NCBI GenBank assembly: GCA_002393895.1
Contig: DGUE01000114.1
Location: forward strand, 3,658-28,258
Origin: Bacteroidales bacterium UBA4318
GTDB taxonomy: Bacteria > Bacteroidota > Bacteroidia > Bacteroidales > UBA932
Length of the DNA: 24,601 nucleotides
Reading direction: 5' to 3'
In this document: positions 873-22,246 of the stretch, one piece after another
Numbering within the stretch: position 1 is the first letter of the stretch
How the letters are laid out: the number at the start of each line of letters is the position of its first letter
The notes under the pieces: generated by a model
The model's database searches: none
Told to the model about the DNA's origin: nothing
What the model saw: only the letters and a program-made list of their open reading frames with translations
Program-made: the position numbers and the translations under genes

Positions 873-3215
873 ATGGAAGACGCAACCAAGAAAAAGATAA
901 CAAAGTGGTTTTGGATACTGGTGACCGCTCCGTTCGCACTGCTGGCCTTTCTGCTGCTGCTCGTATGGATGTTCGCCAAGATCCCTTCTTTCGAGGAGCT
1001 CGAGCATCCGGACAGCAAGCTTGCAACCCAGGTGATTGCAGATGGCGGCGAGGTGCTGACCACCTTCCATATAGAAAACCGCACCTTTGTAAATTACGAA
1101 GAACTTTCCCCCAACCTGGTGGCTGCCACCATCGCAACCGAGGATGCCCGTTTCCGCAAGCACTCCGGAATCGATACCAAGGGCCTCATCCGCGTGGCGG
1201 TGAAGACCATCCTCATGCGGGACAGCAGCCAGGGCGGCGGTTCCACCATCACCCAGCAGCTCGCAAAGACCCTATATCCCCGCAAGGAGGGCGTTGGCAA
1301 GATAGGAATGGTCTGGATCAAACTCAAGGAGTGGATAACCGCAGTGAAGCTCGAACGCAACTATACCAAGGACGAGATACTCGTGATGTATCTGAACTCG
1401 GTGTTCTTCGGCAGCAGCGCCTATGGCATACGTGCCGCTTCCGAGACTTTCTTCGACAAGCTGCCTTCCGAACTCACCGTTGAGGAGGCCGCGACCCTGG
1501 TGGGAATGGTGAACAAGCCCACGAGGTACAATCCGGTAATCAACCCGGACAGGGCCCTCTCCCGCCGCAACTTCGTCATAGGGCAGATGGCCAGGAACAA
1601 GTATATCTCCAGGCACGATGCCGATTCCATAAAGCAGGTTCCCATCAACCTGGTGTACCAGGTGCGGGACCATAATGCCGGCCTCGCTCCCTATTTCAGG
1701 GACATGCTCAGGCGGGATATGAATGCCGAGAAGCCCAAGCGCAGCAACTACCAGTATGCCGAAGACTACACCGCAGATTCGCTCCGCTGGAGGGATGATG
1801 AGCTCTTCGGATGGCTGAACAAGAACAAGAAGCCGGGTGGAGAGAAGTACAACCTCGACAAAGACGGCCTCCGCATCTACACCACCATCAACTACCGCAT
1901 GCAGCAGAATGCGGAGCAGGCGGTGGCGGAGCACCTCGGGAACAATCTTCAGAAGGCCTTCGACCGCGAAAACAAGTGGAAGAAGAATGCTCCTTTTGCG
2001 GGGGATGTGGACAAGGCCACCAGGGACCGTCTGATGAGCAACGCCCGCCGCTGGAGCGACCGTTACCGCCTCCAGCGCAAGGCCGGTGTGCCGGAAGATG
2101 AAATCCTCGCCCAGTTCGACAAGAAGGTGAAAATGAGGGTGTTCGCATGGAACAAGAAGGGATACATCGACACCGTGATGACCCCGAACGATTCCATCCT
2201 GTGGTACAAGAGCGTGCTGCGCTGCGGCATGGTTGCCATCGAGCCGGTGACGGGCCACATCAAGGCCTACGTCGGTGGCCCGAACTACCGCTATTTCAAA
2301 TACGACAACGTCGGGCAGGGAAAGCGCCAGGTGGGGTCCACCATCAAGCCTTTCCTCTACACCCTTGCCATGCAGGAGGGGATGTCGCCCTGCGACAAGG
2401 TCATCAATGTGCCCCAGTCATTCATTGCCGGGGATGGAACCGACTGGACCCCGCGTTCCACCGACAAGGACGAGTGGATAGGCAAGACCGTCACCCTCAA
2501 GTGGGGGCTCACCCATTCATCCAATAACATATCCGCCTACCTGATGAAGCAGTTCGGCCCCCATGCCATGGCCGAGATGATGCACAAGATGGGCGTTTAC
2601 AGCCATCTGGACGAGGTGTATGCCCTGTGTGTGGGTGCTGCGGAGATTTCCATCCAGGAGATGGTGGCGGCATACAATGCCCTGCCTTCCAGGGGAGTTT
2701 ACATCACACCCCTGTATGTGACCCGCATAGAGGACAGCCAGGGTAATGTGCTGTCTGAATTCACCAACCGCAAGCGTGAGGCCATAGGCGAGAACACCGC
2801 ATACCTGATGATCAATCTCATGGAAGGGGTAGTGAACCATGGCACAGGTGCCCGCCTCCGCTCAGCATACGGCCTCAAGGGAGAGATCGCAGGCAAGACC
2901 GGAACCACCAACGACAACTCCGACGGTTGGTTCATCGGCTACACGCCCTCGATTACCTGCGGAGTATGGGTTGGAGGTGAGGACCGTCAGATCCATTTCA
3001 ATTCCCTCGCGCTGGGAAGCGGCTCCAACATGGCCCTGCCCATCTGGGGTATCTGGATGAAGAAGTGCCTCGCAGACGGCTTGTTCTCGGAGGCCGACCG
3101 TTTCCTCGCCCCCGCGGCTGTCAACTTTAACCTGGACTGCACCGGCGGCGACATAGAGACCACCGAGGAGGGCCAGGAAGAAAACAAGAGTGAAGAAGAT
3201 TACTATTTCGAATAA
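873..3215 (+). CDS. Class A penicillin-binding protein (PBP1A-like bifunctional transglycosylase/transpeptidase)
   Basis: This enzyme polymerises lipid II into glycan strands and crosslinks the stem peptides on the periplasmic side of the inner membrane. It has 780 residues. A short basic cytoplasmic tail is followed by one membrane segment (about residues 12-35). The GT51 domain shows EDARFRKHSG with catalytic Glu90, then GGSTITQQLAK and the MYLNSVFFG region. The transpeptidase domain has the three penicillin-binding motifs: Ser489-x-x-Lys492 in GSTIK, Ser549-x-Asn551, and KTGT at 675-678. The length and domain order are typical of Bacteroidota PBP1A (mrcA/ponA-type). The ddl start codon follows its stop by one base, so the two cell-wall genes form one operon. 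The acidic C-terminal tail (EEGQEENKSEED) is unremarkable. Confidence 0.95.
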   Translation: MEDATKKKITKWFWILVTAPFALLAFLLLLVWMFAKIPSFEELEHPDSKLATQVIADGGEVLTTFHIENRTFVNYEELSPNLVAATIATEDARFRKHSGIDTKGLIRVAVKTILMRDSSQGGGSTITQQLAKTLYPRKEGVGKIGMVWIKLKEWITAVKLERNYTKDEILVMYLNSVFFGSSAYGIRAASETFFDKLPSELTVEEAATLVGMVNKPTRYNPVINPDRALSRRNFVIGQMARNKYISRHDADSIKQVPINLVYQVRDHNAGLAPYFRDMLRRDMNAEKPKRSNYQYAEDYTADSLRWRDDELFGWLNKNKKPGGEKYNLDKDGLRIYTTINYRMQQNAEQAVAEHLGNNLQKAFDRENKWKKNAPFAGDVDKATRDRLMSNARRWSDRYRLQRKAGVPEDEILAQFDKKVKMRVFAWNKKGYIDTVMTPNDSILWYKSVLRCGMVAIEPVTGHIKAYVGGPNYRYFKYDNVGQGKRQVGSTIKPFLYTLAMQEGMSPCDKVINVPQSFIAGDGTDWTPRSTDKDEWIGKTVTLKWGLTHSSNNISAYLMKQFGPHAMAEMMHKMGVYSHLDEVYALCVGAAEISIQEMVAAYNALPSRGVYITPLYVTRIEDSQGNVLSEFTNRKREAIGENTAYLMINLMEGVVNHGTGARLRSAYGLKGEIAGKTGTTNDNSDGWFIGYTPSITCGVWVGGEDRQIHFNSLALGSGSNMALPIWGIWMKKCLADGLFSEADRFLAPAAVNFNLDCTGGDIETTEEGQEENKSEEDYYFE

Positions 3216-3216
3216 A

Positions 3217-4233
3217 ATGGGAAAGTACAAGACTATAGCCGTTATCTACGGAAGCGATTCCTCCGAATGGGAGGTAGCATGCCGCAGCGGGGAGTTCACC
3301 GCCTCGCGCATCGACGGCGACATGTATGACGTATATGAGATTTTTGCCCGTTTCGGCAAGTGGCAGCTGGTTGCATGCAAGAAGAAGGATGCAATGCGCG
3401 TGACTTTCCCCGAGGGCTCGCGGCCCGAGGTGGACAAGACCGACTTCAGCATCACCGTGTTAGGCGAAAAGGTGCGCTTCGACTATGTGTACATCATGCA
3501 GCACGGCGCGCCGGGGGAGAGCGGCCAGCTTCAGGGTTATCTGGAGATGCTCGGCATCCCCTTCAGCACCTGTTCATCCGCGGTCAGCGCCATCGCATTC
3601 GATAAGTATGCCTGCAAGAGCTACATACGGGATCTGGGAATCGTGAAGTGCGCTCCCGACGCATTCGTGCACAAAGGGGCCGACCTTGAGGCCTTTTCAG
3701 CTCAGGTTGCATCTTCGCTGAAATTCCCCGTGTTCGTGAAGCCCACCATCGGCGGGTCGAGTTTCGGGGTGACCATGGTTAAGAACCCCGCGGAGGTGGC
3801 TACCGCAGTGGGCTATGCCTTCTCTGAAGGGCCTACGGTGCTGGTGGAGCAGGGGATCAACGGCCGGGAATTCACCTGCGCGGCTTATCGCACCTCGGGT
3901 GCGGTCCACACCCTGCCCATTATCGAGATTATCTCCGATAACGAGTATTTCGACTATGATGCCAAGTATAACGGCCACAGCCGTGAAGTATGCCCGGCAG
4001 AGGCTTCCGAGCAGATAGTGAAGATGGTGCAGGAAACTACCGTCCGCATCTATGAGAACCTGGATTGCTCCGGGCTGGTGCGTATGGACTACATACTGTC
4101 TGAAGACGGGCTTTACTTCCTCGAAGTCAACACTATACCCGGCATGACCAGTGCGTCCCTGGTGCCAAAGATGGTGCGGGCCGCCGGCATAGACATAACA
4201 GATTTCCTTTCGGACATCATCGAAAACGGATAA
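3217..4233 (+). CDS. ddl: D-alanine--D-alanine ligase
   Basis: This ATP-grasp enzyme joins two D-alanines in the cytoplasm to supply the end of the peptidoglycan stem peptide. I chose the ATG at 3217 (338 residues) over an in-frame GTG at 3190. The protein then starts GKYKTIAVIYG as the family usually does, and it sits one base after the PBP stop. The N-terminal domain has QHGAPGESGQLQGYLE. The ATP-grasp part shows VKPTIGGSSFGV, VLVEQGINGREFT, the substrate loop YDAKYNGHSRE and the metal-binding RMDYIL and EVNTIPGM motifs. Pairing with a class A PBP couples precursor synthesis to wall assembly. A strong intrinsic terminator follows 15 bases after the stop. Confidence 0.96.
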   Translation: MGKYKTIAVIYGSDSSEWEVACRSGEFTASRIDGDMYDVYEIFARFGKWQLVACKKKDAMRVTFPEGSRPEVDKTDFSITVLGEKVRFDYVYIMQHGAPGESGQLQGYLEMLGIPFSTCSSAVSAIAFDKYACKSYIRDLGIVKCAPDAFVHKGADLEAFSAQVASSLKFPVFVKPTIGGSSFGVTMVKNPAEVATAVGYAFSEGPTVLVEQGINGREFTCAAYRTSGAVHTLPIIEIISDNEYFDYDAKYNGHSREVCPAEASEQIVKMVQETTVRIYENLDCSGLVRMDYILSEDGLYFLEVNTIPGMTSASLVPKMVRAAGIDITDFLSDIIENG

Positions 4234-11472: not shown

Positions 11473-12056
11473 GAAGGGAGGATTTCGGAACCATAATCGA
11501 GATTGGGGATGTGCTCGTGAGCGAAGATGTCGTGTGCGAGTTTTTCGCCTGTGATTACCCTGTCTGCAAGGGTGCATGCTGCATCGTGGGGGATAGCGGG
11601 GCTCCGCTGGAGGAAGATGAGCTGCCTGCATTGGAGAGGGATTATCCTTCTTTCTGCGCCTTTATGTCTGCTGCCGGACGGGCGGCCGCCGAAGAATCAG
11701 GCTTTTTTGCAATCGACCGGGATGGCGATCTTGTGACGCCTCTGGTGCCCGGCACAGAAGAGTGTGCCTATTGCCATTGGCAAGGAGATAACTGCCTGTG
11801 TGCCATTGAGAAAGCCGGGCTGGTAAAGCCCATTTCCTGCGCCCTTTATCCTATTCGTGTGAAGAAGTTCAAGGGCGGTGGCATGGCCCTTAACCTTCAC
11901 CGCTGGGATATATGCAAGTGCGCTTTCGAGCGTGGCAGGCGTGAGGGAATACGCGTGTATCAGTTCCTCCGCGAGCCTCTTATTCGTCGTTTCGGGCAGG
12001 ACTTCTACGAGGCCCTCTCCGCCGCGGCGGAGCATGTTATAGCAGATCAGGGATAA
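11469..12056 (+). CDS. Cysteine-rich DUF3109-family protein
   Basis: This 195-residue cytoplasmic protein (no signal peptide) matches my memory of the DUF3109 family, widespread in Bacteroidota and without an assigned function. Cysteines cluster in CDYPVCKGACC (about residues 28-38), ECAYCHWQGDNCLC (about 97-111), and single positions in PISCALYPI and WDICKCAFE. This resembles YkgJ-type CxxxCxxCC putative metal-binding proteins, so binding of iron, zinc or an iron-sulfur cluster is plausible but unproven. Its start overlaps the M16-like stop by four bases (ATGA), implying translational coupling. Its last 20 bases overlap the convergent hemW. Confidence 0.82.
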   Translation: MRREDFGTIIEIGDVLVSEDVVCEFFACDYPVCKGACCIVGDSGAPLEEDELPALERDYPSFCAFMSAAGRAAAEESGFFAIDRDGDLVTPLVPGTEECAYCHWQGDNCLCAIEKAGLVKPISCALYPIRVKKFKGGGMALNLHRWDICKCAFERGRREGIRVYQFLREPLIRRFGQDFYEALSAAAEHVIADQG

Positions 12057-13272
12057 TCTCGTCGGCGATGAACCAGTCCCGTTCCGGGATGGGGCCGCGG
12101 TCCGTACGGGCCAGTAGCATAACTTCTTCTGTATGAATCTGTTCGGGCGTCAGGTCTTCTCCCTCGGAGGTCCAGCCGCTCAGTTCCTGGCTGTTCCAGC
12201 TCCGGCGGTTCCCTATCAACGAATGTGCTCCCGGTCCGAGGCCTACGTAGGGATGCCTGGTCCAATAGGCGGAATTGTGCATGGCTTCGTGCCCCGGCAG
12301 GGCCCAGTTTGAGATTTCGTAGTGATGGTATCCGGCTTCGGCCAGGCGGCGGCACAGATAATCATACTGCGCCCGGCACTGTTCCTCCTCCAGTTCCTTC
12401 ACCTCGCCTTTTTCTATCATCCCCGCCAGAGCACTCCCTTCCTCGATGCTCAGCTGATACGCCGATATATGCTCCGGCCGCCAGCCGACCACCTCCTCCA
12501 CCGTCCTCTCCAGAATCTCCATCGTCATCCCCGGCACCCCGGTTATCAGATCTACGCTAATATCAATAGCGTGTTTCCGGTCAGGGGCAGCCCACGCAAA
12601 CTGTCTCGACTGCTCTGCAGTCTCAACCCCACCATTCGCTTTGCTCATGGTCCCCCCTCTTACAGTGCCGAGGGTGGCATGAGTTTGCTGCGGGCTCCCC
12701 TGACCGGAAATGATATTAAATGCGGCTCGTGCGCCATCAGCCGAATGCCGGCGGTTCATCCAACGGAGGATGCCGTCATCCAGCGACTGCACCCCCATAC
12801 TGATCCGCGTCACCCCCAGATCCAGCAGCCCCCGCACATACTCCTCACCCCTCTCTACTATATCCTCCGGATTCACCTCGATGGTGAATTCGCTGTAGCG
12901 TTGGATTCCTTCGCTTAGCTCGGAATGACAGGGAGTGGTGGAGTGTGTAGGCTGGTCGGGCTGTGTCGTTCGCGGAAGTTTTTTGAGTGGGCTCGTGCGT
13001 GGCGGTAGCGGAGCGAACGACACAGCCGCCAGCGTAGAAAGAATACGCTGCAGAACGGAAAGAGGAAGCACGCTGGGCGTACCTCCTCCTATATATAACG
13101 TATTCAGATCCAGCGTTTGGACGATCTCGCCGCATCGCGCCTCAATCTCAGCGCAAACCCCATCCGCCCAGGCATCGATCGCCGCCTCATCCCTCCCCTT
13201 GCACGCAATCTCCGAATAGAAATCGCAGTAGGTGCAGAAACTCCTGCAGAAGGGGACGTGGATGTAGATCAT
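12037..13272 (-). CDS. hemW: Radical SAM heme chaperone HemW, with two in-frame palindromic repeat insertions
   Basis: HemW (formerly annotated as oxygen-independent coproporphyrinogen oxidase) is a radical-SAM protein that binds heme and delivers it to respiratory enzymes. The 4Fe-4S motif is CRSFCTYC (Cys9, Cys13, Cys16). Further family motifs follow in order: LYIGGGTPS, FTIEVNPEDI, RISMGVQSLDD, SVDLITGVPGMT, HISAYQLSIEEG, HNSAYW and GLGPGAHS. At 411 residues it is longer than the usual 370-390. The excess lies in two places: about 35 residues between GGGTPS and FTIEVNP, and about 42 residues between AAFNII and ISVDLITG. Both match palindromic DNA repeats listed separately. No stop or frameshift results, so the protein may be functional. 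The start overlaps the upstream coiled-coil gene stop by one base (TAATG). Confidence 0.92.
   Translation of the reverse strand: MIYIHVPFCRSFCTYCDFYSEIACKGRDEAAIDAWADGVCAEIEARCGEIVQTLDLNTLYIGGGTPSVLPLSVLQRILSTLAAVSFAPLPPRTSPLKKLPRTTQPDQPTHSTTPCHSELSEGIQRYSEFTIEVNPEDIVERGEEYVRGLLDLGVTRISMGVQSLDDGILRWMNRRHSADGARAAFNIISGQGSPQQTHATLGTVRGGTMSKANGGVETAEQSRQFAWAAPDRKHAIDISVDLITGVPGMTMEILERTVEEVVGWRPEHISAYQLSIEEGSALAGMIEKGEVKELEEEQCRAQYDYLCRRLAEAGYHHYEISNWALPGHEAMHNSAYWTRHPYVGLGPGAHSLIGNRRSWNSQELSGWTSEGEDLTPEQIHTEEVMLLARTDRGPIPERDWFIADEIIPDLL
12574..12710. repeat. 137-bp palindromic element inserted in frame in hemW
   Basis: The two 29-base ends are near-perfect inverted repeats: 12574-12602 pairs with 12682-12710. 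Each arm begins TTTCCGGTCAGGGG and ends GCAAACT, with one shifted base in the middle. The interior contains another small inverted repeat, ACCAT/ATGGT, around TCGCTTTGCTC. It encodes roughly the segment from SGQGSPQQ to AAPDRK of HemW, which has no counterpart in the usual family layout. It encodes no transposase and is far too short to be autonomous. The exact insertion edges and any target duplication could not be fixed. Confidence 0.8.
12904..12931. repeat. Palindromic dispersed repeat, copy 1 (inside hemW)
   Basis: A 28-base sequence begins GATTCCTTCGCTTAGCTCGG and ends in AATGACAG, with ATTCC/GGAAT inverted ends. It differs from copy 2 at 22219-22246 by one base (A for C at 12917). On the hemW strand it encodes CHSELSEGIQ, outside any conserved HemW motif. 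Confidence 0.85.
12959..13027. repeat. 69-bp inverted-repeat element inside hemW, adjacent to repeat copy 1
   Basis: The perfect 15-base arms GGCTGTGTCGTTCGC (12959-12973) and GCGAACGACACAGCC (13013-13027) enclose a 39-base interior. With the 28-base repeat 27 bases away, it accounts for the extra Pro/Thr-rich segment of HemW (from about PLPPRTSPLKKLPR to TTPCHSELSE). The two parts may belong to a single composite element of about 125 bases. Confidence 0.78.
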
Positions 13273-22194: not shown

Positions 22195-22218
22195 ATCTTT
22201 TGTTGTTTTATTCAGTTA

Positions 22219-22246
22219 GATTCCTTCGCTTCGCTCGGAATGACAG
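22219..22246. repeat. Palindromic dispersed repeat, copy 2 (between pyrH and frr)
   Basis: A 28-base sequence begins GATTCCTTCGCTTCGCTCGG and ends in AATGACAG. It matches 27 of 28 bases of copy 1 inside hemW. Its ATTCC/GGAAT ends and internal CGCTTCGC allow a small hairpin. It occupies the only gap in the pyrH-frr operon. Confidence 0.85.

Follow-up and report, generated by a model that had tools for sequence, protein, structure and literature searches.

The window analysed here, by which we mean the whole stretch of 24,601 nucleotides from Bacteroidales bacterium UBA4318, carries on its minus strand an open reading frame of 411 aa (12037-13272) for the radical SAM heme chaperone HemW. The best NCBIfam match of the product is TIGR00539 (hemN_rel), which it matches in three stretches and with 180.4 bits, below the curated cut-off of 205.4, as is expected with large inserts in the gene. 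The features of this gene are listed below, with the positions of the window.

12037 to 13272, minus strand: hemW (radical SAM heme chaperone), 411 aa, insert-bearing, identified by its open reading frame and its match to TIGR00539 hemN_rel
12574 to 12710: palindromic element, in frame in hemW (site B), identified by a match to the R1 model described below (12576-12709, 93.2 bits), by its arms and by its fold
12574 to 12602: left arm (in core orientation), the outer 14 nt of which, TTTCCGGTCAGGGG, are site-specific
12603 to 12627, plus strand: core hairpin 1 (GTC..GAC type; helix 4), where the common CGTC foot of the family reads TGTC
12631 to 12651, plus strand: core hairpin 2 (ACCA...TGGT; helices 5-6)
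12655 to 12659, plus strand: CCCTC strand of a probable pseudoknot (helix 7), with its partner GAGGG at 12670-12674
12663 to 12681, plus strand: core hairpin 3 (CA-g-TGCC / GGCA-TG; helix 8), with GAGGG in its loop
12682 to 12710: right arm (in core orientation), placed by alignment of the arms
12900 to 12931: 32-nt REP-like repeat inside hemW, with another copy at 22215-22246 (94% identical)
12952 to 13032: second, different palindromic element in hemW (site A), with arms at about 12952-12973 and 13013-13032

An earlier note, made from the letters of this DNA, had described a palindromic block with 29-base arms at 12574-12710, lying in frame and stop-free within hemW, and both observations were borne out. 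The arms at 12574-12602 and 12682-12710 are 79% complementary without gaps, and a gapped alignment pairs 27 of 29 bases and leaves a single 1-nt bulge on either side. A 19-base arm motif was seen twice, against an expectation of 0.00. The RNA fold calculated for 12560-12730 has an energy of -73.9 kcal/mol, compared with -51.7 +/- 3.75 for shuffled sequences (z -5.9), and 0 of 200 shuffles was as good. No stop interrupts the 411-aa frame across the insert.

The note had added that the gene seems to tolerate the insert. An AlphaFold2 model of HemW (from an alignment of 40 sequences) has a mean pLDDT of 64.9 and a pTM of 0.67, with 134 of the 411 residues below 50. Its longest low-pLDDT stretches are predicted at insert B (residues 193-234) and insert A (87-123), the insert residues having a pLDDT of about 24-36; further such stretches are at 18-26, 321-331, 343-348, 363-365 and the C-terminal 386-411. 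Translation of the insert is plausible from this model, a disordered loop would be consistent with tolerance, and the gene does appear to tolerate the insert.

We compared the gene with 80 related HemW loci from MAGs of Bacteroidales or Bacteroidia, several of which are named Candidatus Cryptobacteroides. The spacer at site B, which the note had put at about seven residues in the family, most commonly has 10 (63 of the 80 loci); it has 8-15 residues in 10 loci, 16-40 in two and more than 40 in five (L001, L005, L007, L008 and L056). In the window it has 52, and the net gain is roughly 37-43 residues. At the protein level, the full insert peptide of the window was found in 13 of the best 120 of 7885 HemW matches, the window's own P0001 included, and a shortened form in P0018 and P0020 from the same best 120. 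By peptide resemblance, other versions of the element family, in another frame or orientation, are present in the HemW of close relatives (P0004, P0011, P0019, P0068 and others), and site B is empty in the close relatives P0027, P0045 and P0030. The site-B pattern used for the proteins had no match in 15 of 85 and was overlong in three more. The same residues encoded by unrelated DNA, which the note had named as evidence against an inserted element, were not seen at this place; relatives have either a member of this family, another insert or none at all.

Site A and site B types combine differently among HemW proteins (e.g. P0001, P0004 and P0007), which suggests, as judged from these sequences, recombination between strains. 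In P0014-P0016 the site B insert is near-identical to that of the window, yet overall HemW identity is only 76-78%, pointing to an exchange of gene segments. In the HemW of L001 (about 3001-4140), site B has a different insert of about 102 nt, whose ends may carry a TTTA direct repeat, and P0057 is empty at this place (AYSIL / TPTNKPDVS). The site A element (window 12945-13050) has matches in the genomes of 8 of 16 relatives, with 13 places in G002; a comparison of the window with L002 shows changed arms whose pairing is largely preserved.

The window's site B element matches 14 of the 16 relatives' genomes, almost always through its interior. No match in these genomes starts before element position 25; among the places listed, most cover positions 49-113 or a part of these, and one alone (79-135, 79% identical) extends to the end of the right arm. 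When copies were printed in register, we observed a common core of about 70-80 nt, with outer arms that differ site by site. The earlier note had expected the 29-base arms to be the repeat. A genome-wide arm repeat has to be rejected, the matches elsewhere in the 16 relatives' genomes being almost wholly interior; in these genomes the arms are indeed largely found nowhere else, a result which the note would have taken against its reading, but the element still belongs to a repeat family because its core recurs.

A covariance model of the core, R1, was built from 31 copies. At E 0.01 or less, 36 of 40 related genomes have matches to it (1-29 copies per genome), and under stricter filters so do 31 of the 149 genomes of a family sample; in an order sample it was found in 4 of 295 genomes (G001 belongs to both the family and the order samples). 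The genomes searched are draft MAGs with no completeness values. As far as sampled, the family is largely confined to a Cryptobacteroides-like lineage. Among the 80 HemW loci R1 matches 11, besides the window; at L005 and L007 the match is at site B, and the rest lie, by position, at other HemW loops. The insert in hemW is one copy of a multicopy family with a conserved folded core.

For the analysis of copies we started from 128 R1 matches and removed L116, L119, L127 and L138, which are the same places as other loci, and the partial L086 and L108, leaving 122. This sample was drawn from the best matches listed, and leans to well-conserved copies; 118 of the 122 are distinct, since L154, L168, L178 and L194 repeat HemW loci, and L110 is on an odd tandem contig. 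The matches span 103-165 nt (137 nt in the window). It could be argued that the insert is merely a hypervariable protein loop under low constraint, or an artefact of assembly, and the lengths of sites A and B do vary widely between species. The same core, however, is found in unrelated genes of tens of genomes, and among the protein clusters listed 12 others than that of the window have the full peptide. Such a reading is refuted by this recurrence of the core, and we give it a close to negligible probability.

We aligned 99 copies to R1 with a structure named beforehand, and 93.2% of the cells pair. The covariation score is 0.421, as against 0.125 in shuffled alignments and at most 0.087 when the partners are slid. 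The element consists of arms (helices 1-3) enclosing two hairpins followed by a third one (NN-n-TGCC GAGGGT GGCA-NN). The outer two pairs of hairpin 3 show four and three Watson-Crick types, though they are absent from R1's own structure. A structure-free covariation scan also recovers the arms, hairpins 1 and 2 and, in hairpin 3, the outer pairs. Because arm pairs are part of the model to which the copies were aligned, the arm pair counts lean towards it. The CCCTC/GAGGG pairing (helix 7) is formed in 99.6% of cells and is nearly invariant. It is probable that CCCTC and the GAGGG loop form a pseudoknot, which is not proven because strands so nearly invariant yield no covariation. The foot of hairpin 1 is CGTC in 75 of the 99 copies, and the arms have a median of 28 matched bp. 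A 1-nt bulge recurs in the left arm on the same side of the core, 68 of 86 left 1-nt gaps being at positions 16-20 from the end of the compared stretch, and it is kept at a similar position although the surrounding sequence differs.

A stop-free frame runs through all the 122 copies examined. As the gene we took the longest open frame, although a few copies (L035/L154, L105) seem to have their true gene in a different one. By this measure 117 of the 122 copies lie in open frames of at least 150 aa, compared with 1398 of 1545 random windows (loci L081 and up), so that copies exceed the local coding density only slightly. Stops are scarce in the element: in 99 copies, 3.43 frames out of 6 are open on average, whereas dinucleotide shuffles have 2.79 (sd 0.10). 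In 62 of the 122 copies both flanking peptides, in one frame, match the flanks of another copy in another locus, which shows that the reading frame of the host gene runs on through the element; a random insertion of about 100 nt would keep the host frame in about a third of cases. From motifs in the flanking peptides, we take the host genes to include RNase R, FolP, GltD, UvrA, HemW, the biotin carrier (BCCP), E2, TrmB, RluD, RibF, AroK, TruB and others. Many of these read as housekeeping genes. A minority of copies are apparently just upstream of genes or between them (e.g. L102/L129, L136 and L198).

One gene which is shikimate-kinase-like (AroK, at L140) has two copies in opposite orientation, at 1501-1625 and 1753-1870. 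In the GltD linker of further species (L232, L233 and L235) other hairpin-like repeats, some of them tandem, occupy the same linker, and it seems that the loops used are shared by several families of elements.

In four comparisons of orthologues, the filled site was 32-33 residues longer than the empty one. The FolP pair L161/L208 has 43 and 11 residues, and the GltD pair L234/L244 has 51 and 19; the HemW pairs compared were P0004/P0027 and P0019/P0030. This gain is close to what the core with short terminal repeats would account for, judging from the sequences. It might be supposed that the insert is removed before or during translation, through self-splicing or ribosomal bypassing, since it is a folded element within genes and hairpin elements of Magnusiomyces mitochondria, cited as a precedent in the report we used (PMC6649704), behave in this way. 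An element that is removed needs neither an open frame nor a gain in whole codons; the copies examined have a stop-free frame, 62 of 122 have both flanks conserved in frame, and the differences between filled and empty sites are whole codons, all of which count against removal. In addition, no Rfam 15 family was matched at its gathering score in the window, which argues against a known structured RNA; the matches were weak (E 6 and above), four of them, with E 6-7, lying in 12540-12740. We consider removal to be very improbable.

The arms of a copy change together. In 20 orthologous pairs of copies, 431 paired cells could be compared, of which 342 are the same in both, 47 are compensated, 34 are changed on one side (20 left, 14 right) and 8 are changed otherwise. 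Independent change of the two arms would give 4.0 compensated cells. The observed count of compensated cells is biased upward, since cells had to pair in both species and some copies are shared among pairs, so that one change may be counted repeatedly, but compensated changes exceed one-sided ones. These 20 pairs are what remained of 23 that qualified, one identical pair and two with less than 60% of cells unchanged being excluded from the sum. Arm identity (median 94%) is unrelated to the divergence of the core (rho -0.09, p 0.40). Taken from the alignments, the arms of each copy appear to be kept matching as species diverge.

Core orientation differs in 7 of the 20 orthologous pairs. Opposite orientations could come from independent insertions into a hot spot, unless the arms are plainly homologous. 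FolP of G002 and G011 is the clearest example of the latter: the arms are homologous, all of their differences (4 of 4) are compensated, and the cores are oppositely oriented at one site, which would point to an inversion of the core.

A general habit of these genomes to form hairpins was also considered and rejected. Outside R1 copies, 270 kb of HemW loci contain 9 perfect stems of at least 12 bp, whereas codon shuffles gave 2.1. The genomes in which these 9 stems lie all have at least 10 R1 copies, but stems and copy number are not correlated (rho 0.09, p 0.58).

Matched arms could also be the mark of a structured RNA, selected for a function at the mRNA level (stability, translation control or protein binding), in which the arms co-vary through RNA pairing. 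The strong covariation in the arms and hairpin 3 and the near-invariant pseudoknot speak for this, as does an asymmetry in the mismatches read in the sense of the core (AC 68, GT 25), as if the opposite strand tolerated G-U pairs. The asymmetry does not serve as proof of an RNA role, since the mismatches read in the sense of the gene show no clear G-U excess (GT 52, AC 37). Moreover, with respect to the longest frame the core is found in both orientations (66 minus and 56 plus among the 122 copies), so no single transcript structure is kept; the host genes are unrelated, and close relatives lack the insert. Selection on the RNA is in our judgement unlikely. Template switching in the DNA is preferred to it because both orientations occur, because a clear G-U excess in the gene sense is not seen, and because arm homogenisation and spacer inversion have been reported elsewhere: in yeast coding genes, template switching between inverted repeats is described as homogenising arms and inverting spacers (PMC8604942), and it is given as one possible mechanism for coding palindromes in nematomorph mitochondria (PMC6649704).

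The site-specific outer arms might instead be the remains of an old target, if the element transposes into palindromes that exist already. Two empty FolP sites, L209 (16 bp) and L210 (11 bp), are indeed perfect hairpins without a core, and the empty site of L208 holds the 10-base palindrome AGGTATACCT, though this is not among the longest stems. Empty sites in general, however, are not palindromic: the mean longest stem is 5.63 against a background of 5.54 in 19 GltD sites and 4.97 against 4.96 in 75 HemW sites. In 14 FolP sites it is 6.21 against 5.12, an excess that rests on the two sites just named, whose hairpins may equally be scars of lost elements. The hypothesis of hairpin targets is weakened by these results, and we hold it to be quite unlikely.

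We therefore return to template switching, and to the reading that we consider probably correct, namely that this is a non-autonomous, mobile-like, protein-coding palindromic element, whose arms are kept matched and whose core is flipped by template switching. The element would have a net length of about 96-100 nt, made up of the three-hairpin core with its probable pseudoknot and short terminal inverted repeats, and would have inserted into many genes in Cryptobacteroides-like Bacteroidales of the rumen and gut. Copies would persist if they are in frame and stop-free, and would be translated as an extra disordered loop. Template switching at the level of DNA, in which one arm is copied from the other in a hairpin or cruciform, may then act on the inverted repeat. 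It would both make the arms complementary and keep them so, would recruit adjoining gene sequence into the outer arms, and might at times invert the core.

The HemW of L005 offers a possible view of how arms arise. Its left arm resembles the flank of the empty L011 (IIRSVAHGEG / IIRSVAGGQN), and its right arm is the inverse of this left arm, which suggests from the sequence that one arm is native and the other a copy. A more specific order of events, in which a folded core of roughly 100 nt inserts, fold-back copying rewrites one native flank as the inverse of the other, and the site-specific palindrome so formed goes on to maintain itself and to flip its core, is possible but must be put forward tentatively. 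If true, the element would be mobile without carrying its outer terminal repeats, which would be produced anew at each site. The recurrent bulge in the left arm counts against pure arm correction, which would tend to erase it.

No mobilising gene was identified in a search for Y1 transposase and reverse transcriptase in 30 of the 40 draft genomes. Y1 transposase is present in 15 of the 30, with no evident relation to R1 copy number, several copy-rich genomes (draft MAGs) having none, and R1 was near Y1_Tnp (within about +/-1.5 kb) in 2 of 22 loci. Mobilisation by RAYT/Y1 (REPtron) was rejected for want of a clear association, and copies were not found as a rule to flank a RAYT. RVT_1 was found in 7 of the 30 genomes (E 1e-10) and in none of the copy-rich G007, G037, G038 and G039, which are also draft MAGs; a retroelement-borne origin was rejected, reverse transcriptase not being detected in 23 of 30 genomes. 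The absence of mobiliser genes from draft genomes is weak evidence. A plasmid search gave no match to the element, and in viral contigs there was no exact match to one 28-base core pattern, which is a narrow test.

The earlier note had likened the insert to the RPE of Rickettsia, and this likeness is supported by the in-frame palindromic element, its size and its placement in genes. RPE (Ogata et al. 2000) are described in the source used as palindromic and as joined in frame to conserved protein genes, and the host protein of Rickettsia gmk is reported there to be functional with an RPE insert (PMC2229807). In both systems, as far as that source describes RPE, palindromes of about 100-150 bp are open in a usable frame and lie in conserved protein genes, with some copies outside genes. 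RPE have about 105-146 bp and terminal inverted repeats; here we found 137 nt in the window, 103-165 nt among the matches and arms with a median of 28 bp, with 117 of 122 copies in frames of at least 150 aa and both flanks conserved in 62 of 122. The host phylum differs, and the two are likened by working, size and structure, not by sequence kinship. The arms here are site-specific and still matched as cores diverge, whereas the Rickettsia elements are said in the account used to lose repeat identity over time (PMC6649704). The core here also has a multi-hairpin fold that is conserved, and one site can have it in either orientation.

Three other systems share features with the element. The coding palindromes of nematomorph mitochondria are long near-perfect inverted repeats in protein genes, for which repeat conversion has been suggested; both of their arms encode conserved protein and the parts of the report used here describe no shared mobile core (PMC6649704), whereas in our case the loops are variable and the arms enclose an inserted core that the copies share. 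In yeast, template switching at inverted repeats resembles the present case in arm homogenisation and in spacer inversion in coding DNA, but the spacers described there have 2-5 bp, with no mobile core in the portion of the report used (PMC8604942), and here the spacer is the core of about 70-80 nt. REPs tagged with CGTC/GTAG recall the CGTC foot seen in 75 of 99 copies, and are described as being also inside replication and repair genes; they are nevertheless given as 20-40 bp long and mostly intergenic (PMC3733652), whereas the element here has about 100 nt and arms, and is mostly in genes. A link to RAYT, moreover, was not found for it in the 30 genomes and 22 Y1 loci. The note had known of no equivalent in Bacteroidales, and our searches of open-licence papers, outside which most subscription papers lie, agree with it: no such element was found described in Bacteroidota.

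These findings bear on how the genomes are read. Annotation and phylogeny should treat such loops as repeats, because arm correction would give clustered, correlated substitutions. Since many species are at hand, with both orientations and with filled as well as empty sites, the entry of an element into a gene, its staying in frame and the self-maintenance of its palindrome are directly testable. Protein-coding palindromic elements are known mainly from Rickettsia and Wolbachia, which are obligate intracellular bacteria. The presence of up to 29 copies per genome in gut Bacteroidales, largely in genes that read as housekeeping genes, suggests a route to new protein sequence that is not tied to endosymbiont decay.
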